Shown piece by piece: positions 14,193-29,388 of a DNA stretch of 64,000 bases. The stretch covers positions 1 through 64,000 of the forward strand of contig CAIPEB010000189.1 in assembly GCA_903863885.1 (NCBI GenBank), written 5' to 3'. The stretch is from an uncultured Planctomycetaceae bacterium (GTDB taxonomy: Bacteria; Planctomycetota; Planctomycetia; Pirellulales; Pirellulaceae). How positions within the stretch are numbered: position 1 is the stretch's first letter; every line of letters begins with the position of its first letter. A program made the position numbers and the translations under genes. The notes under the pieces are model-generated. The model was given only the letters and a program-made list of their open reading frames with translations, had not been told where the DNA came from and ran no database searches.

Positions 14193-15881
14193 TCAGTGCC
14201 GGTAGAGAAACTCGGTGCTGTTGATCAACGCCCAGGCGACATCGAGCCAGTGCTCGCGGCGTTTGGCTCCGCCGGGTTTCGCGGATTTGTTCGCTGCCGC
14301 GAAACCGCCGTATTCCTCAATGCTTTTGACCTCATCCGGCGTCGGAAAGCGCGAGAGAATGGTCAGATAGAGTTCGTCGATGATCTCCGCCGGCTTCCGG
14401 CCGGAATCCAGGATCGCCTTTAATTTAGGGCCCTGTTCGAGCTTTCGCTGAATGTGGCTCGAATTGAGCAGGTGCAGCGCCTGGGCGGGAACCGGCTTGT
14501 TGACTCGCTCGTTCTCCATTCCGGTGGCTCGCGCCGAACGGCCGAACAACGCCAGGAACGGACTTGTGATGCTGCCGTCCGCAATGGCGACCGCCGGCTC
14601 GTTCTGAGGAATATAGGTGAAGGGTTCCGGGATCGCGCTGGTGTACAGGTCGGATGCTCCCGCGATCTGGTTGATCGCGTCGATCAACACTTCGGCGTCC
14701 AGCCGCCGCAGAGGATACGCGGCGAAGTTGGCTTCCGCTTCGGGCTGCGTCCACTTCGGCATCGACGAGAGCTGATACGTCTGCGAGTTGAGGATCATTC
14801 GTTGCAGCGCCTTCAGGTCGTAGCCGCTCGCAACGAACTTCTTCTCGAGGCATTCCAGCAGTTCCGGATTGCTCGGCGGATTGTCAGGGCGGATGTCGTC
14901 CGGTTCGTGTACGATGCCTCGCCCCAGCAGCCATGCCCATTGGCGGTTGACCATGCAGCGGGCGAACCAGCGATTGTCGGCGTTGATCAGCCAGTCCGCG
15001 AACACTTCGCGAGGATCTCGATCCGGCGACAACTCGACCTTCGGGCCGTCCGGAAATATCGCGGTGACCATCTGAGGTTCAATAGGTTCCGCCGCAGCCG
15101 TACTGGCCGCGTCCGGTTTCGCTGCGTCCGGTTTCGCCGCATCGGCCGGTGCCGCCTGCTCGGCGGTGGCTGTGTGCAACGGATCCCAGAACACATTCTC
15201 CTCTTTCCATTCGCGTGTCGGTTTGTAGCCGATCTGCGAAAAGAAAGCGGACATGCCGTCGATCGATTCCCTGCTCCACGTATCAAACCGTGTCCCCAGG
15301 AACGTCAACGCGACGGCGCCCGCAATGCCCTCCGGCGTGCGGTTCTGAATCGCGCGATAGAAGTTCACGGGCCCCACGCGAAAATTGCTGCCGCTGGAGG
15401 TGAGCAGTTCCCGTGCAAAGCGATCGTACGATTTGTTCTCGGCAATCGAAGCACGGACCCAGCGGTGATAGGCCTGTGCCGCGTTGGGCCAGAGATTGAC
15501 CGGGAACTCGGCCTTGATGCGAAGAACGTCGCCCCACCGCATGGCCCAGTAGTCGCAATACTCGTCGCGCTGCAGCAGTCGATCAATCAGGCGGCGGCGT
15601 TTGTTCTTGGTGTCCGTGTCCTGAATGAACTCCCTGGCTTCATTGGCTGTGGGCAGTTTGCCGATGACATCGAGGTAAGCTCGGCGCACAAAGACCGCGT
15701 CGGAACAGAGCGAAGGCTCAATGCCGAGCTTCTGCAACTTGTCCAGCACCACGCGGTCGATCGGGTTGTCCCCGCCCGCAATCACTGGAGTTTCGAAGAC
15801 CGCCGGCGGTGCTGCCTCCGCTGCAAAACCCGCGACCGCGGAGAACAGCATCAAGGAGCACGTCAGTAACTTCTTGGGCAT
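14193..15881 (-). CDS. DUF1549/DUF1553 secreted protein
   Basis: A 562-residue protein if started at the ATG at 15881, which gives a clean signal peptide (MPKKLLTCSLMLFSAVAGFA). The open frame extends 92 codons further upstream but that part is repeat-derived and rejected. DUF1549 fills the N-terminal half (VFVRRAYLDVIGKLPTANE, YWAMRWGDVLRIK, NRTPEGIAGAVALTFLGTRF); DUF1553 fills the C-terminal half (FARCMVNRQWAWLLGRGIV, RMILNSQTYQLSS, NKPVPAQALHLLNS). An Ala/Lys/Pro/Asp repeat linker lies near residue 290. The cytochrome c module (CxxCH) often fused to this family is absent. It leads the minus-strand DUF1549/1553, DUF1501, PPC set. The biochemical role is unknown; polysaccharide or sulfated-substrate processing has been proposed for this class only by context. 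Confidence 0.85.
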   Translation of the reverse strand: MPKKLLTCSLMLFSAVAGFAAEAAPPAVFETPVIAGGDNPIDRVVLDKLQKLGIEPSLCSDAVFVRRAYLDVIGKLPTANEAREFIQDTDTKNKRRRLIDRLLQRDEYCDYWAMRWGDVLRIKAEFPVNLWPNAAQAYHRWVRASIAENKSYDRFARELLTSSGSNFRVGPVNFYRAIQNRTPEGIAGAVALTFLGTRFDTWSRESIDGMSAFFSQIGYKPTREWKEENVFWDPLHTATAEQAAPADAAKPDAAKPDAASTAAAEPIEPQMVTAIFPDGPKVELSPDRDPREVFADWLINADNRWFARCMVNRQWAWLLGRGIVHEPDDIRPDNPPSNPELLECLEKKFVASGYDLKALQRMILNSQTYQLSSMPKWTQPEAEANFAAYPLRRLDAEVLIDAINQIAGASDLYTSAIPEPFTYIPQNEPAVAIADGSITSPFLALFGRSARATGMENERVNKPVPAQALHLLNSSHIQRKLEQGPKLKAILDSGRKPAEIIDELYLTILSRFPTPDEVKSIEEYGGFAAANKSAKPGGAKRREHWLDVAWALINSTEFLYRH

Positions 15882-16281
15882 ATCTTTCGGTCTCGTCTGG
15901 AGTCTGGACGCGAAGAGGCCACGGATTTGCACTGACAAAACACGGATCGATGCAGTGTTCGCTCCCCGGCATCCGGTCGAGCGCCCGCAAGTCAACTCCG
16001 AGTAAAAATGCGACTTTATCATCTTACCGGAAAACCCACATTGTTTGTCCAGAACAGAGTTGCGTGTTTTCCGAGTTCTTGGGCTGGGCTTCGTCCCTTT
16101 CTCCCCCCCATTCGTCCTGTTTCGAAAAGTCCGAACTGCAGCCGATGGATGGGACAAACCGATTGCGGCAACTGGTATGATGTGGGGCGAAAGCAGCTGA
16201 GAATTCCGCGTTCGGCGGCCTCGTTATTTGACGTGCCTTCAGTCGAGGCCTTCACTGGAGTCCCTAAGGGGAGGTTCGGAA
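15882..16281. other. divergent intergenic region with repeats and a possible promoter
   Basis: The 400 bases between the DUF1549/1553 gene and the first DegT gene hold no credible gene. Two dispersed-repeat remnants lie at 15889-15947. For the plus strand, TGGTATGAT at 16173-16181 is an extended -10-like box about 100 bases before the DegT start; no good -35 accompanies it. The DegT ribosome binding site GGGGAGG lies at 16268-16274. Confidence 0.4.
15889..15947. repeat. two adjoining dispersed-repeat remnants
   Basis: Bases 15889-15910 contain GTCTGGAGTCTGGA, the reverse complement of the CTCCAGACTCC family found at 24966-25010 and 54554-54592. Directly after it, 15912-15947 begins GAAGAGGCCACGGAT and ends ACACGGAT, a copy of the second family found at 20277-20304, 26498-26532 and 29400-29421. 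Finding both families side by side suggests they travel or accumulate in the same gaps. Confidence 0.6.
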
Positions 16282-17628
16282 ATGGACGGCGAGAAAAGCG
16301 TATCGCGCCGCGAGTTCGTTGCCGGCGCATCGGGCTTGTTATTGGCGGGGGCGATATCCGGTTCAGCCGAGAGATCCAGCGCCGGGGAGAATGCGGCACC
16401 AAAGCCCGAGTCGGATCTTGCCGTGCACGGCGGCGCGAAGGCCGTGACTGACTCGGCAGGGTCGCGGAAGCGGTGGGGCGAGACCGAACTGAAGCAGCTT
16501 CAATCGATGCTCGAGCAGGACTCGCTGTTTTACTGGCAGGGGCCGCAAACCAAGCTCCTGACGGAGCGGTTCCAACAGGTGTGCCCGCTGAAGTACGTGC
16601 AGACCTGTTCGTCCGGCACCGCCGCGCTGCACATTGCCGTCGCGGCGGCGGGCATCGGCCTGGGCGACGAAGTGATCACATCCCCCGTGACCGATATCGG
16701 ATCGGTGATCGGTGTTATCTACCAGCAGGCCGTGCCTGTGTTCGCGGATCTGGGGGCCGGGACGTTCAATCTGGATGCGGCCGATGTCGAGCGGCGCATC
16801 ACGCCGAAAACCAAAGCCATCATCGCCGTACACTTGACCGGCAATCCCTGCGATCTGGATGCGCTCAAGGCATTGGCGGACCGCCACAATCTGATCCTTA
16901 TCGAGGATTGTGCGCAGGCGTGGGGGGCCCGTTATCGCGGGAAACCGATCGGTTCGATCGGTCATCTCGCCTGCTTCTCGCTGCAGAACTCCAAGCACAT
17001 TACCTGCGGCGACGGCGGTGTGGTCGCATCGAACGACGAGCGATTTGGACCGCTGCTGCAGAAGTTCGGCGACAAGGGAGGGGACCGCCGCAAATGGGGC
17101 GGCTTCGATTCCTTTGCCACCAACTACCGCATGAGTGAACCTCAAGCAGCCGTGGCTGCAGCGCAGTTGACTCAGCTCGAGGAGATCGTCGCCAAACGTG
17201 CGCTGCTGGGCAATCTGCTGACCGCGAAAATCTCCGACCTGCGCGGACTCATTCCGCATCAGGTGCATCCGGAAGACCGGGCTGTCTATTGGTTCTACAT
17301 GCTGCGCATGCGTCCGGATGCCTTCCGCTGCAATCGGTCGGACTTCGTCAAGGCGCTGACTGCCGAGGGCGCGCCGGTCTCGGGCGGGTACATCAAGGTG
17401 CCGCTCTACGGAGAACCCGTTTTCCAGAAGCACGGCTTCTTTGCCGGCCGATGGCCCGTCAAGGAAATGGGGCTGACGACGATGGATTTTTCCAAACATC
17501 GCTGTCCCGAGGCGGAAGCCATTCTCGAAACGGGCATCCGGGTCATGATCACCGAATCGATGTCGGAGCAGTACATCCTCGAAGTTGCCGCTGCGATCCG
17601 CAAAGTGTCGAAATACTACGCAGCCTGA
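16282..17628 (+). CDS. Tat-signal DegT/DnrJ/EryC1 aminotransferase, copy 1
   Basis: A 448-residue PLP-dependent aminotransferase-fold protein. The ATG at 16282 sits 7 bases after GGGGAGG and opens a twin-arginine signal (VSRREFVAGASGLLLAGAIS). The mature part shows DegT features: TCSSGTAALHIAVAAAGIG (phosphate-binding turn), GLGDEVITSPVTDIGS, KTKAIIAVHLTGNPCDLDAL, EDCAQAWGARYRGKPIG (the Asp that pairs with the pyridine nitrogen), and the PLP lysine K238 in QNSKHITCGDGG. Cytoplasmic relatives aminate keto-sugars or cyclitols using glutamate. Export of such an enzyme is unusual. It is followed after 124 bases by a second paralogue with the same signal type, and the plus-strand run ends with another Tat protein. 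Confidence 0.85.
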   Translation: MDGEKSVSRREFVAGASGLLLAGAISGSAERSSAGENAAPKPESDLAVHGGAKAVTDSAGSRKRWGETELKQLQSMLEQDSLFYWQGPQTKLLTERFQQVCPLKYVQTCSSGTAALHIAVAAAGIGLGDEVITSPVTDIGSVIGVIYQQAVPVFADLGAGTFNLDAADVERRITPKTKAIIAVHLTGNPCDLDALKALADRHNLILIEDCAQAWGARYRGKPIGSIGHLACFSLQNSKHITCGDGGVVASNDERFGPLLQKFGDKGGDRRKWGGFDSFATNYRMSEPQAAVAAAQLTQLEEIVAKRALLGNLLTAKISDLRGLIPHQVHPEDRAVYWFYMLRMRPDAFRCNRSDFVKALTAEGAPVSGGYIKVPLYGEPVFQKHGFFAGRWPVKEMGLTTMDFSKHRCPEAEAILETGIRVMITESMSEQYILEVAAAIRKVSKYYAA

Positions 17629-17652
17629 AGTTCGAACCCAAACCAACCGCGG

Positions 17653-17692
17653 GTGCCCGCACGCGGCGCGGCGGGCGCTCTTTGTCTGTTTT
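17653..17692 (+). terminator. possible terminator or attenuator after the first DegT gene
   Basis: GTGCCCGC (17653-17660) can pair with GCGGGCGC (17671-17678) around a 10-base loop, and is followed by the T-rich stretch TCTTTGTCTGTTTT. It begins 24 bases after the stop of the first DegT gene and ends about 60 bases before the second one, so it could terminate or attenuate read-through. Confidence 0.4.
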
Positions 17693-17752
17693 CATTCCAG
17701 CACCGCAAGCCAACCTCTAACAGCCGCATGGCCAGTGCAGAAGGAGCGTTTG

Positions 17753-19120
17753 ATGAGCAAGCCAGTGACGAATCGTCGTGAATTCCTCGGAACAGTAGGC
17801 GCGATGGGTACGGCGTCGGTCCTTGCCGGCACGCTGGGAAGCGTGACGGGTTTCGCCGCCGAGCCGAAGGAGAAGCTCGCGATCGACGGCGGCAAGCCGG
17901 TGCGCGAAAACGGCCTGCACTACGCCCCCTACGGTCCGCAGTTCTTCGATGATACGGAGAAGAACGAATTGATCGAGGTGCTCGAATCGAAGTCTCCGTT
18001 CCGCTGGCGGGGCGATGAATCCAAGGTGCTCAAGTTCGAGAAAGCGTACTCGGAACACATCGGCGTGAAGCACGCGCTGGGCGTCACGTCGGGCACAACC
18101 GCGCTGTACACGGCCGTGGCCGCGCTGGAAATCGGCCCCGGCGATGAAGTCATACTTCCCGCGTGGACGTGGTACGCCGACTACGATGCGATCGTCCTGT
18201 CCGGTGCGCTGCCCGTTTTCGCCGAAATCGACAACTCGTTTGCCATCGATCCCAAGGACATCGAAGCCCGCATCACTCCTCGGACCAAGGCCATCATCGC
18301 CTGCCACCTGCAGGGCACTCCCGCGGACATGGATGCGATCATGGCGATCGCGCGCAAGCACAACGTGAAGGTTCTCGAAGACTGCGCCCAGTGCTGCGGC
18401 GGACGCTACAAGGGCAAGTTCGTCGGCACGATCGGCGACATCGGCATCAACAGTTTCCAGCTCAGCAAGACGATCACTGCCGGCGAAGGCGGAGCGGTCG
18501 TCACCAATGACCCGAAGCTCTTCGAACGGGCCATCCGCTTCCACGACGTCGGCGTGATCCGCTCGCCCTATTCCGAAGCGTTGAACGGCGGCATTCTCGC
18601 AGCATTCGCTGCCTGCAACTTCCGCATGAACGAATTCACCGGCGCGGTGCTGTTCGGTCAGGTCCAGAAGCTCGGCGAAATCTGCAAACGACTCCGCGCG
18701 AACTACCGCAAGGTCCGCGACGGCATTGCGGACCTGCCCGGTTTGAAGCTGCGCAAGACGCCGGACGTCGAGGGCGATCTGGGCGTCGGCGTGTTCATTG
18801 ACTTCGGCACCCGCGCACGCCGCGACCGCTACATTCGCGCGATGAACGCCGAAGGCGTGGCCGCTTCCGGCCCGGGCGGTTCAGCAGTCCTGCCGGCCGA
18901 CGAACGCATCGAGAAGAAGTCGACGATCCATCCCGATTGGCCGACGTTCAATACGCCGCAGGGCAAGGCGATCAAGTACGGCGCCGAGAGCTGCCCGAAG
19001 ACCATCAACTACCTGGATCGTCACGCCGGCGTCATCATGGACCCGAACTTCGACGAGAACGATCTGCAGGACATCATCAAGGCCATCCGCAAGGTCTACA
19101 CTGCGATGGGATCCGCCTGA
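17753..19120 (+). CDS. Tat-signal DegT/DnrJ/EryC1 aminotransferase, copy 2
   Basis: A 455-residue paralogue of the preceding gene. The start at 17753 is chosen because AAGGAG lies 6 bases upstream and the resulting N-terminus is a twin-arginine signal (TNRREFLGTVGAMGTASVLAG). The motifs are canonical: GVTSGTTALYTAVAALEIGPGDEVI, PAWTWYADYDAIV, EDCAQCCGGRYKGKFVG, and the PLP lysine K239 in FQLSKTITAGEGG. The sequence FRMNEFTGAVLFGQVQKL matches the substrate-binding region of sugar aminotransferases. K238 of copy 1 and K239 here align almost to the residue, so the two arose by duplication and both keep the catalytic lysine. Likely substrate: a keto-sugar or cyclitol outside the cytoplasm, by inference from the family and the signal. 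Confidence 0.87.
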   Translation: MSKPVTNRREFLGTVGAMGTASVLAGTLGSVTGFAAEPKEKLAIDGGKPVRENGLHYAPYGPQFFDDTEKNELIEVLESKSPFRWRGDESKVLKFEKAYSEHIGVKHALGVTSGTTALYTAVAALEIGPGDEVILPAWTWYADYDAIVLSGALPVFAEIDNSFAIDPKDIEARITPRTKAIIACHLQGTPADMDAIMAIARKHNVKVLEDCAQCCGGRYKGKFVGTIGDIGINSFQLSKTITAGEGGAVVTNDPKLFERAIRFHDVGVIRSPYSEALNGGILAAFAACNFRMNEFTGAVLFGQVQKLGEICKRLRANYRKVRDGIADLPGLKLRKTPDVEGDLGVGVFIDFGTRARRDRYIRAMNAEGVAASGPGGSAVLPADERIEKKSTIHPDWPTFNTPQGKAIKYGAESCPKTINYLDRHAGVIMDPNFDENDLQDIIKAIRKVYTAMGSA

Positions 19121-19165
19121 TCGGCTCGGCCGTCAGGCCATTTGCTCACGTGCAATAGGACTCAG

Positions 19166-19198
19166 CCCTCGCCGCCATCGATCTCGCGGCGGCGAGGG
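19166..19198 (+). terminator. strong hairpin after second DegT gene
   Basis: CCCTCGCCGCC (19166-19176) pairs perfectly with GGCGGCGAGGG (19188-19198), an 11-base-pair stem with an 11-base loop. Only a weak T-run (TCTGT) follows. It lies between the second DegT gene and the next Tat protein gene and could act as a partial terminator or an RNA-stabilising hairpin. Confidence 0.5.
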
Positions 19199-19233
19199 TC
19201 TGTCCAACCCGCGAATTCCAGAAGGAGTTGCCC

Positions 19234-20151
19234 GTGGCTCATCAACTTCCCGTTTCGCGCCGCGATGTCCTGAAGCAAGCCGCCTTGGGCGGAACGTTTG
19301 CTGCGTTGTCGGGACGATCACTCGCCTTCACGGCCGAGGAAAACAAGCCCGCCGGCAAAGTCCGCGATCGACTCTGGGTCTGGGCACACGCGGTCGGCTC
19401 CTATGACAACGCGTGGGGATTGCCGGGCAACTCGCGATTGACGCCGATCGAAGGAGCCCGTTATCTCGGCGTGCCGAATCTGATCATGATCCGGTACTCG
19501 GGCAAGCCCGAGCCACCCTTCGAGGAGTATGCCGCTCCGTTCCGCTCGCTGCAGCGAATCTACTGGTCGATCACCGGCGCGGGCGGCGCCACGTCGGCAG
19601 ACGAACGCGAGGCCGTGTATCGCCTGGCCGCCAATATGCCCAACATCGCCGGCGTTTTCATGGATGACTTCTTCCAGATCGAAGCGAACGACGCTGACGC
19701 CTCACCCGCGAAAGCCTCGCTGACGCCCGACGAATTGCGTGCGATTCGAGACCGCCTGCGGATCGGCCATCGGCGCTTGGATGTGGGCGTCACGCTGTAC
19801 ATGCACCAGCTTTCGCCGAAGATCCTCCGTCACATCGACCTGTGCGACGTGGTCTCGCTGTGGACATGGCGCTCGGAGGACTTGAACCGGCTGGAACAGA
19901 ATTTCGCGAAGTTCCGCGAACTCGCCCCCGCCAAGCGGGTCCTGCTCGGGCTGTACATGTGGGACTTCGGCACCAACAAGCCGATGCCCGTCGATCGCAT
20001 GAAACACCAGTGCGATCTGGCGCTGAAGTGGCTGCGCGCAGGGCAGATTGAGGGCATGATCTTTCTGGCAACGAACATCTGCGACCTGAAACTCGAAACG
20101 GTCGAATGGACCCGCAACTGGATCGCATCCGTCGGCGACGAGCAGCTGTGA
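19234..20151 (+). CDS. Tat-exported protein of unknown family, probable TIM-barrel
   Basis: A 305-residue protein. GAAGGAG at 19221-19227 is correctly spaced for the GTG at 19234 rather than for the TTG two codons earlier. A twin-arginine signal (VSRRDVLKQAALGGTFAALSG) leads the protein. The body has alternating strands and helices: RDRLWVWAHAVGSYDNAWG, YLGVPNLIMIRYSGKPEP, NMPNIAGVFMDDFFQIEAND, LDVGVTLYMHQLS, CDVVSLWTWRSEDL, RVLLGLYMWDF and GMIFLATNICDLK. The order resembles a glycoside-hydrolase-like TIM barrel, with acidic residues at strand ends (MDDFF, LWTWRSED). No family name is recognised, so no reaction is claimed. Position after two Tat DegT genes on the same strand suggests a joint pathway. 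Confidence 0.72.
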   Translation: MAHQLPVSRRDVLKQAALGGTFAALSGRSLAFTAEENKPAGKVRDRLWVWAHAVGSYDNAWGLPGNSRLTPIEGARYLGVPNLIMIRYSGKPEPPFEEYAAPFRSLQRIYWSITGAGGATSADEREAVYRLAANMPNIAGVFMDDFFQIEANDADASPAKASLTPDELRAIRDRLRIGHRRLDVGVTLYMHQLSPKILRHIDLCDVVSLWTWRSEDLNRLEQNFAKFRELAPAKRVLLGLYMWDFGTNKPMPVDRMKHQCDLALKWLRAGQIEGMIFLATNICDLKLETVEWTRNWIASVGDEQL

Positions 20152-20276
20152 TAGGCCGGTTTTAGCTCCGCGAAAATTCAATACGACGCAACGTTCAACG
20201 TCACTTCTCTGGGTGCCATGAGAGGCTTGTCCGCCCGTGTTAGTTGCGGATGCGCATTGAGTCGCGCGAGTCTTTC

Positions 20277-20304
20277 TTATCCGTGTCCATCCGTGGCCTC
20301 TTCC
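20277..20304. repeat. dispersed repeat, CCACGGAT family
   Basis: TTATCCGTGTCCATCCGTGG, followed by CCTCTTCC, lies between two convergent genes. It is the reverse complement of the pattern at 15912-15947 and 26498-26532 (GAAGAGGC followed by an ACGGAT word), so its orientation is inverted relative to those copies. Confidence 0.6.
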
Positions 20305-20324
20305 ATCTGCCCAAGGGACCGCAC

Positions 20325-21494
20325 TCAACTTCCGTAGAAGCCGAACTCGTAGGCCGCGTCGTAGAGCGCTTCGATGTTTGCGGCAGGCACGTCGGCCTGG
20401 ATGTTGTGCACGTTGTTGAAGACGTAGCCGCCTCCGGGCTTCCAGACTTCGAGGTTGCGCCGCACGTGCTCGCGGATCTCCTGAGGCGATGCGGTCGGCA
20501 GCACGTGCTGGGCGTCGATGGCTCCGCCCCAGAAAACCAGCTGCTTGCCGAACTGCTCCTTCAAGGTCGCCGGATCCATGTTCGTGGCGCTGATCTGCAC
20601 CGGATTGATGATCTGCACGCCGTTGTCGATCAGGTCGGGAAGATACGTGACGCACGATCCGCACGTGTGATACCAGACCTTGGCCCGGGTCTTTGAGCGA
20701 ATGAACTGTGCAAGTTGTTTCTGCCGCGGTTTGACGATGCGGCGGTAGAAGTCCGGCCGGAAGAGCGGGCCCGACTGTCCGGCGATGTCGTCGCCGATCA
20801 TGATCACATCGACCACGTCGCCCACTTCGTCCAGGAACAGGCGGAACCAGTCCATCCAGAACTTCAGCGTGCACTCGAGCAGCGCTTCGCAGAATGCCGG
20901 CTGAGTCGTCATGTCGATGAACCACTGCTCGAGTCCGCGCAGATACCAGCAGGTTTCGTAGACGACGCCCGAGATGCCGCTGACCACTGCGTAGGGCGTG
21001 TCGCGCCGGATCGCCAGAGCCCGATCCCGGATCCCGGCGAAGCGGGCCGGATCGTCGCCGCGCGGAAACGGATACGATCGCAGATCATCCATCGTGGCAT
21101 CGGCCAGCGGATGATGGCTGATGTCCATGTACAGCTGCTGGTCGTCCGGCATGGACCACGTCACGCCGAACTCGTCCGTCAGATCGTGCCAGGTGCGGCC
21201 ATCGCGGACCCGCGTGATGATGCGGCCGTCGAACCCCTCGCCCGCTCCCGCCGCAACGTAGCGGGTGTCCACGTGCAAACGCTCCAGAACAGCCTCGGAC
21301 GGCCTGGCCAACTGCTGCACCGCGTCCATGATAACGACGTCTTCCGACAGGCCGAGGTGCTTCAGCAGATTGCGGTAAGCGACCTTGTGAATGCCCGTCT
21401 GGTTGCCGCCCAGATCGATGGGAATGCGGTCCGTTTCCTCGTGGTTCAGGGCCTTCAGAAGTCTCTCACGCGACGTCATCGTTTCGCGCGACAT
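20325..21494 (-). CDS. uroporphyrinogen decarboxylase-family protein (URO-D/methyltransferase-like)
   Basis: A soluble 389-residue protein of the URO-D superfamily, recognised from MTSRERLLKALNHEETDRIPIDLGG at the N-terminus, VSGISGVVYETCWYLRG in the middle, and VWYHTCGSCVTYLPDLIDNGVQIINPVQISA, which matches the metal-binding region of MtaA/MtbA-type corrinoid methyltransferases (His and Cys zinc ligands). The heme enzyme HemE would need its Arg/Asp propionate clamp, which is not evident, so a methyltransferase or sugar-related role is likelier than heme synthesis. Planctomycetes carry many such paralogues. It lies downstream of the GH42-like gene on the same strand, 163 bases away. The DUF1638 gene at 59.8 kb belongs to a family linked to corrinoid methyl transfer elsewhere. 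Confidence 0.8.
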   Translation of the reverse strand: MSRETMTSRERLLKALNHEETDRIPIDLGGNQTGIHKVAYRNLLKHLGLSEDVVIMDAVQQLARPSEAVLERLHVDTRYVAAGAGEGFDGRIITRVRDGRTWHDLTDEFGVTWSMPDDQQLYMDISHHPLADATMDDLRSYPFPRGDDPARFAGIRDRALAIRRDTPYAVVSGISGVVYETCWYLRGLEQWFIDMTTQPAFCEALLECTLKFWMDWFRLFLDEVGDVVDVIMIGDDIAGQSGPLFRPDFYRRIVKPRQKQLAQFIRSKTRAKVWYHTCGSCVTYLPDLIDNGVQIINPVQISATNMDPATLKEQFGKQLVFWGGAIDAQHVLPTASPQEIREHVRRNLEVWKPGGGYVFNNVHNIQADVPAANIEALYDAAYEFGFYGS

Positions 21495-21657
21495 GGCTCA
21501 GCTCCCGCAGAAATAAGCTCGACGAATCCGGCGTCATCAATAACTCAGACAGTAACCGTTCCCGCTCGGCACGGCAACAAGTGATTTGCGGATCGAAATG
21601 CGCATCCTGCCGCGTTTGGACTCGGCAATCGGCTCCTCGATCAGCTCGCCCTGGCCA

Positions 21658-24600
21658 TCAGTTCTTTCGTGCCGGAGGCCGCAACACAAAGACACGGGTT
21701 CCGTTCTCGGCGAACTCCGTCGTGAACGAACTGCAGTCTCGCGCGATTGTCGAACCCGACATGAAATCCGCCACGTCCGCGGCACGCGGGATTCGTATCG
21801 TGCGCTGGCCGGGCTTCCGAACCGTGAGAGCCACCATGTCGTGATTGGCCCAGACCACTTCGCCGGTGTCCACGTACTGGTGCACTCCCGCCAGTTCAGC
21901 CAGGCGCCGGAGCAGCGGTTCGGGCAGAACCGGCGCGGCCGAGTAGACAGCCGTCCACGACTCGTAATTCCTGACGATCAGCCCGGCGCGTCCATCGGCC
22001 AATTCACCCCAGACCTGTCCGTTCGTATCCTCGGCATAGCAGATCGGCGCAATCGGATTGGAAGGCCCGAAGGTAGTGCCGTTGAGCTGCTGCAGCAGCG
22101 GCGATCCGGACGGAAGCAGATCCCAGCCTTCTTTGCGCGATGCAGGCGCCTTGAGAGTTACCTGCATCGCCGCGGGGCTGCTCGAGACCCGGATGCGGAT
22201 TCCCGTGAAATCGAACATCGCCTGCTCGTCTGCGTGACCGTCCCGATAGAGGCCCGGCGCTCCGAGAAATACGAGGACTCGATGTTCGCCTTTCAGCGAG
22301 TCGACGGCCTGCCGGTCCCTTGCGGTCGGCGCGAAGCTCGTCGGGATGATGAACAGCTTCTTTTCTTTGATCTTCGGCAGATCGCTGACCAGGTAGTGCC
22401 CGACGGGCGCTCCGATGCGGTGCAGCGAGGGAATCTGGTCGATCAGCAACAACCGGCCAAGCGGGTCGCCGACACGCATGAAGCACAGGCTTCGCTCGTC
22501 CACGACGAATGCGACTTCGTCCATCGGCGACCGGTCGAGCGTCAGGGCCGATCCCGCTGCGGCCGTCCATTTGCCGAGATGCTCCATCAACTCGGGGTGG
22601 TTGTAACGGTTGCCGCCAACGTCAAACCACCACTGCGCCGCGCCGCTGACGACGCAGTTGGCCAGTTCCTTGTCCTGCTGAAGCATGTCGCCCGCCACAG
22701 TTGCTGGGCGTCCCCATTCACCGGCCTGCCCTCCCGAGAGCGATGTTCGGATGTCGTTTTCGTCGAACCACAGTTTGCCGTGCAACTGCACGCTGCGGGC
22801 AAGCGACATGAAGTGGCTTGTTCCCTCGCCGCCCAACTGCCGGAACGCATAACTCGTCGGGCTCGTGACGAAATCCACATCGGGCGATGCGAGAACATGC
22901 TCGAGTGCAAGGTGGCCGGCGTTCTGCTGACGCTGCTCGCCGCACAATTGCAGCAGGTATCCGTAGAAAACCCCGACGATCTTCTCGCGCTGCGTGTGGT
23001 CCTTGACCGCTTTTGCGAAACAGCCGATGGTGTCGGCGACCAGATCCGAGTTGTACAGATAGAAATCGATCACCTCCTGCTCGCGCCGCGAATCGCGCAG
23101 CCAGCCCGCACGCGTCGCGCTGCGTTGGGCTTTGCTCGGAATTACCGCATTGTCCAGCGTTTTTGCGGCGTCGGCCCAGGCGGTCTGCAGGGCCGCATCC
23201 GTCGCGTATTTCCTGCGAAGCCACTTCCGAAATCCCTGCACGTTGGCGGGCGAGTAATCGACCCATTGATCTTCGTTGGCTCCCCACATCATCCATTCCT
23301 CGGTCGTGCCTGATGCGAGGTGATAGCCGACGACCCGATCCGCATACGGCGACTGTGCGACGTGGTCGATGAACTTATTCAGCGCCGCGACCGTGTCGCG
23401 CCGCCAGATCTCCGACGCCCAACTCGGTGCCGGCTTGCCGCCGGCATGAATGAATGGCTGCGGCCGGCCGTCGCCTGCGTCGAATTGAACGACCTCGTCC
23501 GGATGCAGTTTGCTCCACCACGCAGGGGCGTGCAGATACAGTCGCGGAAAGAACCACGCGCGCGGATTAGCCTGCAGCAGCATCAACACACGTCGGTCGA
23601 ACTCGGAATAATCGAATTCATCGGGCCCGACCCAGACGGTCTTCGACAGGCCGTAGCCCGCTTCCGTGGGCGTTCCGCTGAACGTGAACAAGTCGACGCC
23701 GGCTCGCGTGAAGTCGGAAAACACTTCCGATGAAGGCGAATATGTGGCCCACGCCATTCCCTTGTGCGGCTGATCATTGATCATCAGCGTCGGCACACCG
23801 TTATGCGGCTTCACTTCCGCTCGCGTGCGGCCGGTCGCCCGCTGCCGGACCGTCACCTTGCTCAGAAAACCGGCGTCCGCACCGCGAGCGTCGTTGCTGC
23901 TGCGACCGGCGGCAGGAACCGCAACGCGGATCTTCGCCTCTCCCAATTGCAGCCCGGCTTCGGCCTCACCGCCGGTAACGTATTCGGGAACTTGAACGGC
24001 GACGTTCTCCAGCGAGACATTCTGGCCGGGCGCGATCTGCGGAAGCGGACTCGGCAGCTTCAGCGGCAGTTCCAGTACCGCCGCGCCGCCTCGTTTCAGT
24101 ACGAGATTGACCCGATCGTCCTCGCACGGCTTGTCCAGCGAAAAGCAAACGCTGAGACGAATCGTCTGTCCCGCGGACCATTGCTCGGGGATGTCGCAGG
24201 AGGAAATGGTCGCCACCGGCGGATCGGGACGAACGACTTCAACACGCTGAACCTGGATCTCATATTCCGCAGACGATTTCAAGTCGAACGCGATGATCAC
24301 GACATTCGCCAGCGGAAAATCAAGTCGCCCGTCCGCGTCACGAGACCAGGATGCCACCTTCCATTGATCGATGGGAAACGAAATCCATTGAAACTCGCGA
24401 CCCGTATCGAGCTTAACCGGCGGGACGCTCCATTCCGCTCCGTTCGCATCCCGGACCTTGGCCGCGAAGTTGAAAGGGGCTCCGGTGTTGCGAACCAGCA
24501 CCCGCAGCTGTTGAAAGGGCCGATCGATCGGTTTCGTCAGAAACAGGTCATTGAACGGCGCGCTGCGCGGGACGAACTTCCACGAGAGCGATGCCGGCTC

Positions 24601-24852
24601 AGCCACTGCCGTGATTTCGCTGAGCGAAAATTCCTCTTTCAACCGGGACTGGTCGCGCATGCAGTCCCAGTCCTGTATGTGCGTGCCGTCGAACAGAACC
24701 TGCGTTTCGTCCCCGAAAGCCGCGTACACTGCCGGCAACATGGCCAGCATCGCGAGTACTGCGGCGGTGATGAAAGAACGGCAACTCGCATGCGGGCCAA
24801 GGCTCGCGTCTCGAACTGAAAGCCGGTTCGTATTCGGCGGGTATGTTGTCAC
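21658..24852 (-). CDS. large secreted GH42-like glycoside hydrolase
   Basis: A 1064-residue protein when read from the GTG at 24852 (AAAGG lies upstream); the open frame continues another 102 codons into a dispersed repeat and that part is rejected. A signal sequence (SFITAAVLAMLAMLPAVYAAFG) follows about 25 residues in. The first ~400 residues are beta-rich, with a galactose-binding-like domain (AKVRDANGAEWSVPPVKLD) and further sandwiches. A TIM barrel starts near residue 425 (GVPTLMINDQPHKGMAW). Candidate catalytic pair: E518/E519 in SGTTEEW and E698 in KLWFDENDI, about 180 apart, as in GH42 beta-galactosidases. A glutamine-amidotransferase-like trimerisation domain follows (FIIPTSFAPTARDRQAVDSL). 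It probably cleaves a galactoside or related glycoside in the periplasm. Confidence 0.75.
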   Translation of the reverse strand: MTTYPPNTNRLSVRDASLGPHASCRSFITAAVLAMLAMLPAVYAAFGDETQVLFDGTHIQDWDCMRDQSRLKEEFSLSEITAVAEPASLSWKFVPRSAPFNDLFLTKPIDRPFQQLRVLVRNTGAPFNFAAKVRDANGAEWSVPPVKLDTGREFQWISFPIDQWKVASWSRDADGRLDFPLANVVIIAFDLKSSAEYEIQVQRVEVVRPDPPVATISSCDIPEQWSAGQTIRLSVCFSLDKPCEDDRVNLVLKRGGAAVLELPLKLPSPLPQIAPGQNVSLENVAVQVPEYVTGGEAEAGLQLGEAKIRVAVPAAGRSSNDARGADAGFLSKVTVRQRATGRTRAEVKPHNGVPTLMINDQPHKGMAWATYSPSSEVFSDFTRAGVDLFTFSGTPTEAGYGLSKTVWVGPDEFDYSEFDRRVLMLLQANPRAWFFPRLYLHAPAWWSKLHPDEVVQFDAGDGRPQPFIHAGGKPAPSWASEIWRRDTVAALNKFIDHVAQSPYADRVVGYHLASGTTEEWMMWGANEDQWVDYSPANVQGFRKWLRRKYATDAALQTAWADAAKTLDNAVIPSKAQRSATRAGWLRDSRREQEVIDFYLYNSDLVADTIGCFAKAVKDHTQREKIVGVFYGYLLQLCGEQRQQNAGHLALEHVLASPDVDFVTSPTSYAFRQLGGEGTSHFMSLARSVQLHGKLWFDENDIRTSLSGGQAGEWGRPATVAGDMLQQDKELANCVVSGAAQWWFDVGGNRYNHPELMEHLGKWTAAAGSALTLDRSPMDEVAFVVDERSLCFMRVGDPLGRLLLIDQIPSLHRIGAPVGHYLVSDLPKIKEKKLFIIPTSFAPTARDRQAVDSLKGEHRVLVFLGAPGLYRDGHADEQAMFDFTGIRIRVSSSPAAMQVTLKAPASRKEGWDLLPSGSPLLQQLNGTTFGPSNPIAPICYAEDTNGQVWGELADGRAGLIVRNYESWTAVYSAAPVLPEPLLRRLAELAGVHQYVDTGEVVWANHDMVALTVRKPGQRTIRIPRAADVADFMSGSTIARDCSSFTTEFAENGTRVFVLRPPARKN

Positions 24853-24879
24853 GGTTTCACACCTTTCGCTGAAGTGAGA

Positions 24880-25010
24880 TACCGGATACCGGATGCCGGT
24901 AGTCGGATGCCGGCAGTCGGTAGTGGTAGTCGAATGCCGGTAGTCGTTGTGACCGATAGGTGTTTGCCGGTCTCCGGTCTCCAGACTCCAGACTCCGGTC
25001 TCCAGACTAC
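24880..25010. repeat. composite low-complexity dispersed repeat
   Basis: Two blocks sit side by side. Bases 24880-24945 repeat words such as CCGGATGCCGGTAGTCGG and CAGTCGGTAGTGGTAGTCG; bases 24966-25010 repeat GGTCTCC, CCAGACTCC and CAGACTACTCC. The first block matches (inverted) the repeat at 31165-31203; the second matches those at 54554-54592 and 15889-15910. It lies in the 242-base gap between the Gfo/Idh/MocA and GH42-like genes and, translated on the minus strand, yields ETGVWSLETGD-type nonsense. Confidence 0.75.
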
Positions 25011-25029
25011 TCCGCCCGGCCCCCAACGA

Positions 25030-25060
25030 CGCGGGCGGATCCGTCGGAGATCCGCCCGCG
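25030..25060 (-). terminator. perfect 12-bp hairpin after the Gfo/Idh/MocA gene
   Basis: CGCGGGCGGATC (25030-25041) pairs perfectly with GATCCGCCCGCG (25049-25060) around a 7-base loop. On the minus strand it lies about 35 bases after the stop at 25095. There is no T-run, so it may be a processing or stabilising structure rather than a classical terminator. Confidence 0.5.
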
Positions 25061-25094
25061 CGAGTTGAGTTGACATTGAAGAGCCGCATTCGAC

Positions 25095-26354
25095 TCAGCT
25101 CTTGAGGCCCTTGAGGTCCATTTCGAGTTTTTCGCCGCTCTCGAGCAGTTTCTTCCAATAGACGCGTTCCCCGGTGTAGGCCGCCGTGCGACCGAGCACG
25201 GTGATCAGATTGCTGCGGACGCTGGGCTGTACCGTCGTGTTCGCGACATTGCCGGCCAGAACATCCTTGTGGAACGTGGCAATATTCGCCACGGCCCCGT
25301 CTCGGTAGATCTGCGGTGACTTGCCGCCGCGATAGAAAGTCTCCCCGCCGCCGCGGATCATGACCTGGCCTCCGTATTCGGTTTCAAGCACGCCCTGCGT
25401 GCCGAACATGCGATTGCGAATGCCCTCGGGTTGAGTGCCGTGACCCTCGAACTGCCGAGAACTGAACGCGATGCCCACGTTGTCGGGGTACTGGAAGTTG
25501 ACAACGAAGTGATCCCAGCACGTGCCCACGGGCCGCACGGTGCGTCCACCGGTTCCATCCGCGTGCAGCGGTTCCTGGTCCATGATCCAGTTCATCACGT
25601 CCAGCGTGTGAATGTTTTGTTCGGTGATGATGTCGCCGGAGAGTACCTTGTCGAGTCCCCACGAACGCAGACGCACTTCCGGGTTGTCAGCGTCGCTCTT
25701 CCACGCATCGTACATGCGGATGAACGGATCGCCCGCATGGTAGGTCGATTCGCCGAACGCAAACTTGCCGAGCGCACCGGCGCGGATTCTCTTTAACGCT
25801 TCCATGTAGAACGGATCGGACCGCGTCTGGAAATCGACGAGGAAGCAGAGTTTCTTTTCCGTGGCCTTCCTGCCGCTCTCGGCGATGCTCTGGCAGCCGG
25901 GCACGTCCACGGCGATCGGCTTGGCCACGTAGACGTGTTTTCCGGCCTCGACGGCCGCGGCAGCCTGCTCGGGATGGAAGTAGGGCGGGCTCTCGATGAC
26001 GACGGCGTCCAGTTTCTGCTCGAGCATCTTGCGATATCCCGAGAGTCCCGTGAAACGCTTGTCCGCGGGAATGCCGAACTTGTCGCCGGCTCCGTCGACG
26101 CGATCCTGGAAATAGTCCGCGGCCGCAACGATGTTGTAGCCGCCGTTCTCCTTGAACAGGTCGAGGATCCACGTGCCGCGTCCCCCGCAGCCGATGATTC
26201 CGATGTCAATCTTCTCGTTGGCGGCATAGGCACGGGCCGCCTGGGGCGCGACAACCGTCATCGCTACGGCGGCGGCACCCGCGCCGGCAAGGAATCCTCG
26301 ACGCGATACCTGGCCCAGTTCCTGTTGGCCTGTTGCTTGTGGATGAGCGTTCAT
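25095..26354 (-). CDS. Tat-exported Gfo/Idh/MocA-family oxidoreductase
   Basis: A 419-residue protein. The Tat signal is clear (VSRRGFLAGAGAAAVAMTVVAPQAARA). The mature part begins with a Rossmann fold (KIDIGIIGCGGRGTWILDLF) that binds NAD(P), followed by the KP motif in VYVAKPIAVDVPG, where the Lys is usually catalytic, and a C-terminal GFO_IDH_MocA domain ending in SNLITVLGRTAAYTGERVYW. Insertion RLRSWGLDKVLSGDIITEQNIHTLDVMNW contains a His suited to sugar binding. Expected reaction: NAD-dependent oxidation, reduction or redox-assisted hydrolysis of a sugar or cyclitol outside the cytoplasm. AAGGA lies upstream of the ATG at 26354. The GH42-like gene follows 242 bases downstream on the same strand. 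Confidence 0.88.
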   Translation of the reverse strand: MNAHPQATGQQELGQVSRRGFLAGAGAAAVAMTVVAPQAARAYAANEKIDIGIIGCGGRGTWILDLFKENGGYNIVAAADYFQDRVDGAGDKFGIPADKRFTGLSGYRKMLEQKLDAVVIESPPYFHPEQAAAAVEAGKHVYVAKPIAVDVPGCQSIAESGRKATEKKLCFLVDFQTRSDPFYMEALKRIRAGALGKFAFGESTYHAGDPFIRMYDAWKSDADNPEVRLRSWGLDKVLSGDIITEQNIHTLDVMNWIMDQEPLHADGTGGRTVRPVGTCWDHFVVNFQYPDNVGIAFSSRQFEGHGTQPEGIRNRMFGTQGVLETEYGGQVMIRGGGETFYRGGKSPQIYRDGAVANIATFHKDVLAGNVANTTVQPSVRSNLITVLGRTAAYTGERVYWKKLLESGEKLEMDLKGLKS

Positions 26355-26497
26355 TTGCGGGTCCTTCGTTGCTTGTGGCTCGGCGGCGCCGGCTGGGGTG
26401 ACTCAAAGAGATATCGGAAATCCGCGTTCCCAGAAATCCACACGATCTTATGCGGCCTTATCGCCTTTCGCAAGTTTTGCCAAGTTGCGCGAAGGGG

Positions 26498-26532
26498 AAG
26501 AGGCGACGGATGTGCACGGATTAAACGCGGAC
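26498..26532. repeat. dispersed repeat, CCACGGAT family
   Basis: GAAGAGGCGACGGATGTGCA followed by CGGATTAAACGCGGAC lies in the divergent gap between the Gfo/Idh/MocA and radical SAM genes. It shares GAAGAGGC plus an ACGGAT word with the copies at 15912-15947, 20277-20304 (inverted) and 29400-29421. Confidence 0.6.
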
Positions 26533-26549
26533 AAATCTCAGGCCGTTCG

Positions 26550-26555
26550 TACAAT
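26550..26555 (+). promoter_or_regulatory. possible -10 box for the radical SAM gene
   Basis: TACAAT at 26550-26555 lies 57 bases before the ATG of the radical SAM gene. The upstream -35 region is poor, so only the -10 is proposed. Confidence 0.3.
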
Positions 26556-26611
26556 ATGACGGGACGGCACACCCGTTTCTGGTCTCGACGATCCTTCAAC
26601 GAGTTCCTGCA

Positions 26612-27976
26612 ATGCAGTCACCCTGGCCGCTTACTCCCGGTGCGATGCCTCGCGTGGCGAGTGACGCCGCGGAGCGACTCGACGAGAAACCCGCGTACCT
26701 CACGGTTGCCGGGGTTCCGCTCGGGAGGCAGGGTTCCGCGCTGGTCGGCCTGAAGGACACCGGACTGGACATCTCGCTGCCCGACGGGCTTGCGCTGCAT
26801 TACGACCGTGAAGGACGACTGACTCGCGCGGCTACCCCGAACATTCAGTGGCGTCGGGGCCTCTCGCACCGCACCGTTTGGCTGCGCAAGAGGTCCGGCC
26901 TGGAAGGCGGCGGTCTCGAGACACGATTGCTTACACCCGACCTGAGCGACCGCATCGCGGATGAAACGAGCGTGCGGGCTCAGGAGGTCCTGGCCGCTTG
27001 GCAAGTTCGCTCACGACCGTTGATCAAATATGAAGGTGAACCGGCGCGGGCCGCGGAGTTGCTCGATCGCCGTTTGTCGCGTGCCGCAGCCTTTGATGCG
27101 CAGGCCGCAAGGATCGACCATGAGAGATTCGCCGCGGTCTACGGCGACATCCCGATTCTTCCCCCGGACCAATACCGCGCGCTCGTCCTGCTTGCCACCG
27201 GCGGATGCGCCTACAACCGTTGCACCTTCTGCGGCTTCTATCGCGACTCGGCCTTCCGGCGGCGTACGGTCGATGAATTCCGCACGCACGCGAGCGAGGC
27301 CGTCGCGTATCACGGCCAAGACGCCGCGGTTCGCCGCGGAATATTTCTCGGGCAAGCCAATGCGCTGACCGGACCTCGATCGTGGCGGAAAGAAATCCTG
27401 CGCGTGGCCAACGAAAAATGGAACTTGCTTGCCTCGCGCGACGATCTCGCGAAGCGGCGATGCGTTCGCGAGACCGAGATTTCGTCCTTCATCGACGCCT
27501 TCACGGGGCGGGGCATGGACGCCGACGAGTTCCGCGAACTGCGTTCGCTCAACCTGCGCCGGCTCTATCTCGGCGTCGAGACGGGCGATCCGCAACTGCT
27601 CGAATGGCTGCGGAAGCCGGCGACAATCGCGGCAATGATCGAGACGGTCCACGCGGCCAAGCAAGGCGGCGTGAGCATCGGCATCATCCTGCTGGTCGGC
27701 GCGGGCGGCGAAGCCCACTTTGAATCGCACGTTCGAGAAACAGCCGGACTGCTGCGGGCCATGCGACTCGGCAAGGGCGACTATGTCTACCTGTCTCCGA
27801 TGACCGAGGCCGCCGGGGCCGAGTACTCGGCGCTCGCAGCGGAAGCCGGCATCGAACCTCTGTCGGCCGCCCGCATGGCGGAACAGACCTCGCGGCTGAA
27901 GGCCGTATTTCTCGACGTGCCGCGAAATCGCCGTCCGTACATCGCGCATTACGAAGTGGCTCAGTTCGTTTACTGA
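26612..27976 (+). CDS. radical SAM protein
   Basis: A 454-residue soluble protein. The cluster-binding cysteines are C199, C204 and C207 in GGCAYNRCTFCGFY, a CX4CX2C spacing that some radical SAM subfamilies show in place of CX3CX2C; the aromatic residue before the last Cys (F206) fits the family. Downstream are RGIFLGQANAL, LRRLYLGVETGDPQLLEWLRKP (the typical GxET strand) and GVSIGIILLVGAG. The ~190-residue N-terminal part is unfamiliar and could be a substrate or partner domain. The reaction is unknown. It starts a plus-strand pair with a Tat-signal Gfo/Idh/MocA gene 113 bases downstream. Confidence 0.85.
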   Translation: MQSPWPLTPGAMPRVASDAAERLDEKPAYLTVAGVPLGRQGSALVGLKDTGLDISLPDGLALHYDREGRLTRAATPNIQWRRGLSHRTVWLRKRSGLEGGGLETRLLTPDLSDRIADETSVRAQEVLAAWQVRSRPLIKYEGEPARAAELLDRRLSRAAAFDAQAARIDHERFAAVYGDIPILPPDQYRALVLLATGGCAYNRCTFCGFYRDSAFRRRTVDEFRTHASEAVAYHGQDAAVRRGIFLGQANALTGPRSWRKEILRVANEKWNLLASRDDLAKRRCVRETEISSFIDAFTGRGMDADEFRELRSLNLRRLYLGVETGDPQLLEWLRKPATIAAMIETVHAAKQGGVSIGIILLVGAGGEAHFESHVRETAGLLRAMRLGKGDYVYLSPMTEAAGAEYSALAAEAGIEPLSAARMAEQTSRLKAVFLDVPRNRRPYIAHYEVAQFVY

Positions 27977-28089
27977 TGCGAGCGATTCGCGGCCGCAGTG
28001 CCCGCACGGGTTGCCACGGACATTCGCAAGATTTATCGTGGCCCTGCCAGCCCTGTGCCTTCCCGTCCGTCTCAAGAAAAGGAAACGCC

Positions 28090-29388
28090 ATGAAAAGCGG
28101 ATTTAATCGTCGTCGGTTTCTGGGTGCCGCAGGGGGCGTCGCCGCCGCTCTTCTTACGACTCGCTTGCGGGCCAGCGCCAACAACCGCATGAACTGTGCC
28201 GTGCTGGGCGTGGGCGGCCGCGGCACCGGCCTGCTCTCACTCGCGCTGACAATCCCCGACGTTCGAGTTGCCGCAGTCTGCGACATCAAACCCGATCGTC
28301 TGGCCAACGGGCTGGACATGGTCACAAAAGCCGGACAGCCGCCGGCCGCCGGATTCGGCGACCGCGGACCGCTCGATTACCGGCGGATGCTTGAAAGCAA
28401 AGACATCGACGCGGTGATCATCGCGACTCCGATGCAGGATCATGCCCCCATGGCAATTGACTGCCTCAAGGCCGGCAAGGCCGTGCTCTCGGAAGTCGCC
28501 GCGGCCATGACCGTGGACGAGTGCTGGGCGCTTGTGCGCGCCGTCGAGGAATCGGGGCGGATGTACATGTTGTCGGAAAACGTCTGCTATTACCGCGACC
28601 TCATGGCCGTCGCCAACATGGTACGCCAGGGTCTGTTCGGGCAGACGACGTATGCCGAATGCGGCTATGTGCACGATTGCCGTTTCCTGAGTTTTGAGGC
28701 CGACGGCTCGCTGACATGGCGAGGCAAACTGGCAACCCAGTTCATCGGCAATTGGTATCCCACGCATGCCATCGGCCCGGTTGCCCAGTGGATGGGAATC
28801 AACAAGACCGATCGATTCGCCTCGCTCGTCGCGATGAACACTCCGCCCGTGGGACGCCAGCAATACGCAGCCAAAAAGTTCGGCCCGGAAAGCCCGCAGG
28901 CCAAAATGAAAGTCGTCAATGGCGACAGCACGACAACGCTGATTCAAACCGCGAACGGCGCAGTGATCGACCTGCGATTCGACACTTCGTCCAACCGTCC
29001 CCACCGCATGACCACCTACCACTCGCTCCAGGGTCAGACGGCTTCCTTCCAATCGCTGACCAATGATATCTGGATCGAGTCACGCAGTCCTTCCTACGAA
29101 TGGGAAACGATGGAGAAGTACTTGAAGGAGTTCGATGATCCTCGCTGGAAGGAATTCGCCGAGACGGCGAGCAAGAGCGGCCATGGCGGCGCCGACTTCT
29201 TTGTGATGAAGGACTTCTTTGACGCACTAAAGGCCGGCACGCCATCGCCAATCGACGTTTATGATGCGGCCGCATGGAGTTGCCTGATGCCATTGTCAGG
29301 CCAGTCCATCCAGTCCGGCAGCGCTCGCGTCGAGATTCCCGATTTCACTCGCGGGAAAGTCAAATTGCCGGAAGCTAAGAACTCGTGA
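28090..29388 (+). CDS. Tat-exported Gfo/Idh/MocA-family protein lacking the usual EKP lysine
   Basis: A 432-residue protein read from the ATG at 28090, which opens a Tat signal (NRRRFLGAAGGVAAALLTTRLRA); the upstream part of the frame is rejected. The Rossmann fold is intact (NCAVLGVGGRGTGLLSLA), so NAD binding is expected. The catalytic stretch reads AVLSEVAAAMTVDECWALV, so the Lys-Pro of the common EKP motif is replaced by Val-Ala. A His-rich strand YPTHAIGPVAQWMGI and SSNRPHRMTTYHSLQG follow in the C-terminal domain. The missing Lys suggests a changed mechanism, for instance the NAD-assisted glycosidase reaction known for GH109 and related families, but this is inference. It follows the radical SAM gene on the same strand. 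Confidence 0.85.
   Translation: MKSGFNRRRFLGAAGGVAAALLTTRLRASANNRMNCAVLGVGGRGTGLLSLALTIPDVRVAAVCDIKPDRLANGLDMVTKAGQPPAAGFGDRGPLDYRRMLESKDIDAVIIATPMQDHAPMAIDCLKAGKAVLSEVAAAMTVDECWALVRAVEESGRMYMLSENVCYYRDLMAVANMVRQGLFGQTTYAECGYVHDCRFLSFEADGSLTWRGKLATQFIGNWYPTHAIGPVAQWMGINKTDRFASLVAMNTPPVGRQQYAAKKFGPESPQAKMKVVNGDSTTTLIQTANGAVIDLRFDTSSNRPHRMTTYHSLQGQTASFQSLTNDIWIESRSPSYEWETMEKYLKEFDDPRWKEFAETASKSGHGGADFFVMKDFFDALKAGTPSPIDVYDAAAWSCLMPLSGQSIQSGSARVEIPDFTRGKVKLPEAKNS

Follow-up and report, generated by a model that had tools for sequence, protein, structure and literature searches.

Amino-sugar formation by DegT proteins is known as cytoplasmic chemistry on nucleotide-linked sugars, and GDP-perosamine synthase, WbpE, ArnB and Fic25 are known as cytoplasmic enzymes. 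In ketosugar amination pairs of the WbpB/WbpE and NtdC/NtdA type, the DegT gene adjoins a Gfo/Idh gene. Tat-exported Gfo/Idh/MocA proteins are ordinary for planctomycetes. Tat-exported PLP enzymes as such are already known, since PvdN and PtaA of Pseudomonas are periplasmic PLP enzymes exported by the Tat system, and PvdN must bind PLP for transport (PMC6206403).

The two DegT proteins described here, DegT1 and DegT2, would be like PvdN and PtaA in export mode and site, with PLP loading and folding in the cytoplasm, Tat export and periplasmic action. Unlike these proteins, which modify pyoverdine, a siderophore, at its glutamate side chain, they belong to the DegT family and come with a different gene set. 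DegT1 shares its fold and PLP-site residues with the four cytoplasmic enzymes named above, but the DegT proteins of the window differ from these in carrying conserved Tat signals. The exported set resembles the WbpB/WbpE and NtdC/NtdA type in gene adjacency and departs from it in two ways: the EKP lysine is missing from its conserved Gfo, and it includes a triple-RidA protein. This secreted partner consists of three PF01042-type domains, like those of the Rid family (RidA; Rid4-Rid7), and lacks the catalytic arginine as Rid4-Rid7 do; unlike the Rid family, it is secreted and fused in triplicate. The Gfo1 and Gfo2 proteins of the window are of the common kind of Tat-exported glucose-fructose oxidoreductase/GH109 proteins, with no difference seen. 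The literature searches made on DegT/Tat, 3-keto sugars and planctomycete Tat proteins yielded nothing on an exported DegT. A conserved exported DegT family, if true, would put PLP chemistry where nucleotide sugars are not expected, and raises the questions of substrate, amino donor and cofactor loading.

Gene layout and Tat motifs at 16282-29388

The window (the whole 64,000-nucleotide stretch of DNA analysed, on contig C189 of an 11.0 Mb assembly in 789 contigs) contains at 16282-29388 eight genes in three strand blocks, which are not one operon. Block 1 (+) holds DegT1, DegT2 and a 305-aa protein, block 2 (-) the URO-D-like, GH42-like and Gfo1 genes, and block 3 (+) the radical-SAM gene and the GH109-type Gfo2 gene.

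16282-17628, + strand: DegT1, a Tat-exported DegT/DnrJ/EryC1/StrS aminotransferase by sequence, PLP lysine K238
16297-16371, + strand: DegT1 Tat signal, approximate extent, around SVSRREFVAGASGLLLAGAISGSAE
17753-19120, + strand: DegT2, a second DegT protein with a Tat signal, PLP lysine K239
19234-20151, + strand: 305-aa protein carrying a Tat motif; probable TIM barrel, without a family match
20325-21494, - strand: URO-D superfamily protein, nearest to MtaA/CmuA-type methyltransferases, no signal seen
21658-24852, - strand: GH42-like secreted protein with a Sec-type signal, start codon uncertain
25095-26354, - strand: Gfo1, a Gfo/Idh/MocA protein with a Tat motif, lysine kept (AKP)
26612-27976, + strand: radical SAM protein
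28090-29388, + strand: Gfo2, a Gfo/Idh/MocA protein of GH109 type with a Tat motif (Glyco_hydro_109_C, E 5.7e-41)

The initial annotation had named five twin-arginine proteins, and all five motifs were present among the eight genes: SRREFVA in DegT1, NRREFLG in DegT2, SRRDVLK in the 305-aa protein, SRRGFLA in Gfo1 and NRRRFLG in the GH109-like Gfo2. With Tat-gene frequency counted over the window (~41 genes, seven convincing Tat), five of the seven fell inside the eight-gene stretch (hypergeometric 0.0014, for a stretch picked after the fact). The genome encodes TatC (contig C279, E 1.4e-60). The GH42-like gene was likewise found to have the signal of its own that had been ascribed to it, a Sec-type start, and its GH42 match is weak and partial (E 2.7e-7, positions 70-240 of 376). 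The URO-D-like (20325-21494, -) and radical-SAM (26612-27976, +) genes, which also lie inside the stretch, were missing from the title of the initial annotation.

Pfam found GFO_IDH_MocA in both Gfo1 and Gfo2, and Gfo2 matched PF21252 (GH109 C-terminal, E 5.7e-41) and PF01408 (E 4.1e-14). The genome gave ~97 Gfo-like matches, so chance Gfo neighbours are likely. For the 305-aa protein, a profile search returned no family match, and a model of moderate confidence (pLDDT 76) gave only low-scoring TIM-barrel matches, glycosidases included. The protein is rare (4 of 298 genomes), which ruled it out as a core part. Its paralogue in the same genome (L143:571-1962, contig C607) has ~150 extra residues mid-protein.

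Cofactor site and export signal of the DegT proteins

Both DegT proteins matched Pfam DegT_DnrJ_EryC1 (PF01041), DegT1 with E 2.7e-82 and DegT2 with E 1.3e-78 (277.3 and 265.2 bits, respectively, vs a cut-off of 19.8). The PLP lysines, correctly noted before as retained, are K238 in QNSKHIT (DegT1) and K239 in QLSKTIT (DegT2), and the other cofactor residues are also kept in both. The PLP lysine and cofactor-site residues were invariant in 14 mixed and 37 DegT1 sequences (D209, Q212, S233, K238, N281 and R283 in the body of the 37 aligned DegT1 orthologues), and the PLP-site residues were conserved across 15 DegT2 sequences. A DegT1 model (pLDDT 88.6) matched Fic25, GDP-perosamine synthase, WbpE and ArnB, with Fic25 the best structural match at 33% identity. 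Upstream of DegT1 lies an RBS-like AGGGGAGG; a promoter scan of the DegT operon gave nothing exceeding shuffles, and PADLOC gave no defence-system match.

A scan for DegT1 orthologues, taking one genome per species, yielded 80 loci with identities of 56-84%, whose records carry the names Planctomycetota, Verrucomicrobia, Kiritimatiellae, Hydrogenedentota and, in one case, an acidobacterium. One locus (L100) is from the cultured Singulisphaera acidiphila DSM 18658. The closest named relatives are MAGs under Pirellulales and Planctomycetota, which points to an uncultured planctomycete as the carrier of the window. The Tat motif was present on 78 of the 80 orthologues, and the remaining two are cut at the contig start. 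It usually read SRR-x-F-L/V/I and preceded a mildly hydrophobic stretch with hardly any charged residues (mean hydropathy past the DegT1 motif, 1.19), and within the first 46 residues only R9, R10 and F12 were invariant across the 37 aligned orthologues. DegT2 orthologues at 14 named loci carried the Tat motif and kept the PLP motifs.

In a tree of 110 DegT proteins, a quick tree whose deep order is unsure, the Tat label changed three times vs ~31 in shuffles, and DegT1 and DegT2 formed separate clades with Tat on every member of each. Three truncated rows were omitted, one row (L086) was Tat-labelled by eye (SRRRFLL, missed by the automatic rule), and the result was repeated after long branches had been dropped and alphaproteobacterial relatives added. 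The predicted Tat export of DegT1 and DegT2, conserved in relatives, is strongly supported by these comparisons.

Two more DegT proteins of the same genome (L137:5517-6869 and L139:2401-3723) have Tat motifs, which makes four of its eight full DegT genes exported-looking.

Conserved partners and their altered catalytic residues

The core that recurred in relatives comprised DegT1, DegT2, often a third DegT, a particular Tat Gfo/Idh protein and the secreted triple-RidA protein, and the Pirellulales-type gene order was DegT1, DegT2 (or another Tat DegT), Tat Gfo/Idh and secreted triple-RidA. A pairing of DegT with Gfo/Idh, proposed earlier for this stretch, was recovered in the sense that a Tat Gfo/Idh lies beside the exported DegT in relatives, but the window's Gfo1 and Gfo2 are not this partner. 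They were ruled out as the conserved DegT partner, whose closest copy in the genome lies on contig C385. There this copy (77% identity) adjoins the closest match to the triple-RidA (54%). A Tat protein that matched no family comes before the C385 pair (L134:6922-14048), and a GH95-type protein comes after it. Divergent triple-RidA genes of other families were also considered as system parts and were set aside, as none of 18 such loci had a DegT nearby.

The reading in which the whole stretch 16282-29388 is one periplasmic module, with Gfo oxidising, DegT aminating and the GH42-like protein supplying the sugar, draws on the five Tat signals in eight genes, on the lysine retained by Gfo1 (AKP), and on the known DegT and Gfo/Idh pairing, which was also seen in the cytoplasmic sister clade of the DegT tree. 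These points are outweighed by the three strand blocks, by the different Gfo that is the conserved partner on C385, by the GH109-like, glycosidase-type family of Gfo2, and by the large number of Gfo-like genes from which chance neighbours could come. When gene neighbourhoods in relatives were compared, relatives of the window's GH42-like, URO-D-like, radical-SAM and TIM-barrel genes were found near DegT1 at 0 of 80 loci, so that the thirteen-kilobase module put forward in the initial annotation was not supported; we regard it as quite improbable. The conserved core is redefined as the set given above, and the remaining genes of the stretch lie beside it without belonging to it.

The Gfo linked to DegT has the Rossmann NAD-binding domain PF01408 (present in the L034, L035, L036 and L134 copies). 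In all 17 Pirellulales-type DegT-linked Gfo proteins, the C385 copy included, the lysine of the EKP motif is replaced by glutamine (YGEQPLSH), and these EQP proteins read HGxS vs HGxD in their nearest EKP paralogues. EKP is kept by Gfo proteins elsewhere in the same genome. A missing aspartate four residues before the Gfo histidine was rejected as a special mark, as EKP-bearing relatives vary there too. In scyllo-inositol dehydrogenase the EKP lysine is required, and alanine at this position abolishes activity (PMC5969746). A third Tat Gfo/Idh in the window (58052-59374, -) has EKP intact; it shares 56% identity with the type linked to DegT but falls outside the set described here.

The DegT2 orthologue and the EQP Gfo motif occurred in the same four genomes among 149 of the class (Fisher 5e-8, or 2.5e-7 counting one motif-like extra match), a statistic that overstates independence because the four genomes are related. 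The two genes are on different contigs in the genome under study despite this co-occurrence. The comparisons support the view that DegT1 and DegT2 in Pirellulales are part of a conserved, putatively exported set with Gfo/Idh and triple-RidA proteins.

Since the Gfo beside DegT1 in Verrucomicrobiota keeps EKP, the change to EQP is not general. At the Verrucomicrobiota, Singulisphaera and Hydrogenedentota loci, two signal-less Amidohydro_2 proteins often precede DegT1, with a secreted carbon-nitrogen hydrolase and a Kelch-type protein further upstream. Because the adjacent amidohydrolases have no signal, part of the Verrucomicrobiota-type set looks cytoplasmic. The second amidohydrolase before DegT1 (AmiB; L119:1610-2374, L037:8403-9188) does not have the HxH metal motif retained in its partner AmiA, and looks like a degenerate enzyme paired with the intact AmiA.

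The catalytic arginine of RidA imine deaminases, by the rule taken from PMC4433059, was absent from all three domains of the triple-RidA protein in each of the 12 aligned rows, 11 of them distinct. Rid4-Rid7 are also without this arginine and appear not to hydrolyse imines (PMC4433059). This absence weakens the idea that the RidA protein is an ordinary imine deaminase protecting PLP enzymes. The arginine would bind the imino-acid carboxylate, and its loss would therefore fit an imine that has no carboxylate, a sugar imine for example.

Because both conserved partners have lost the catalytic residue of their family, a simple exported oxidise-then-aminate pair appears unlikely for the core, and the joint loss is a sharp, testable clue. 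The periplasmic amination/redox pathway of the initial annotation is partly supported: the PvdN/PtaA precedent (PMC6206403) and the conserved export signal stand on its side, and the partner Gfo without the EKP lysine stands against it. The altered Gfo and RidA residues also leave room for the set to be something other than a metabolic pathway. In another reading, which we hold to be improbable, the exported DegT proteins retain PLP chiefly as an aid to folding and export, and serve as binding or structural proteins complexed with the Gfo-like and Rid-like proteins. It would account for two partners without their catalytic residues, and the PLP binding needed for PvdN transport shows how export could alone conserve the lysine; however, the tested PLP-site residues beyond the lysine were invariant in the 37 DegT1 and conserved in the 15 DegT2 sequences.

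Proposed chemistry of the putatively exported set

We think it fairly probable that DegT1 and DegT2 are Tat-exported PLP enzymes which, together with the EQP Gfo and the triple-RidA, act on a periplasmic keto or amino compound. DegT1 and DegT2 would take up PLP and fold in the cytoplasm, and the Tat system would then move the folded proteins out whole. Once in the periplasm, the DegT enzymes may aminate or deaminate a substrate that could be a keto or amino sugar or a related compound of envelope or glycan origin. The Gfo-like and Rid-like partners may bind or process the keto or imine compound in a non-standard way, and would not act as an ordinary dehydrogenase and imino-acid deaminase. The sequences show the family, the PLP site, the Tat signals, their conservation and the linkage, and from these we infer the actual export, the activity, the substrate, the direction and the role of the altered partners.

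The cytoplasmic sister DegT clade adjoins ordinary EKP-bearing Gfo/Idh genes at the five loci seen; where the wider context was examined, at two loci, glycosyltransferase, hexapeptide-transferase or polysaccharide-deacetylase genes were near. The DegT1 model matches, taken with this Gfo and polysaccharide context, point to ketosugar amination as the probable ancestral chemistry. The alphaproteobacterial relatives (39-40% identity) grouped with the cytoplasmic sister clade, and their genes share an operon with altronate-dehydratase-type, dihydrodipicolinate-synthase-type and aldehyde-dehydrogenase genes, a catabolic-looking context in which the reaction may run in the reverse direction, as deamination.

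A catabolic role, in which the DegT proteins would deaminate a periplasmic amino sugar or amino-sugar acid and the keto product could then be taken up or cleaved, differs from the explanation we prefer solely by fixing this direction, and seems to us possible but on the whole unlikely. It fits the alphaproteobacterial operon, the secreted carbon-nitrogen hydrolase and amidohydrolases upstream of DegT1 in Verrucomicrobiota, and the GH95-type gene after the Gfo-RidA pair in the genome under study. The identity to the alphaproteobacterial relatives is, however, just 39-40%, and the planctomycete sister clade looks biosynthetic. The preferred explanation, with exported DegT enzymes acting in either direction, could be extended to a widespread periplasmic amine pathway of the PVC group and related bacteria, with several Tat DegT proteins, and with an EQP Gfo and an arginine-less triple-Rid both repurposed to handle keto- or imino-sugars; this extension we put forward tentatively.

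Among the other genes of the window, a DUF1501 gene with a Tat signal (12396-13820, -) and a PSD1/PSCyt2 gene (14193-16157, -) adjoin DegT1 on the opposite strand. DUF1501 beside PSD1/PSCyt2 is a familiar planctomycete pair. At 2784-5216 (+) lies a gene for a GH127-type protein (beta-L-arabinofuranosidase family) whose start is signal-like.
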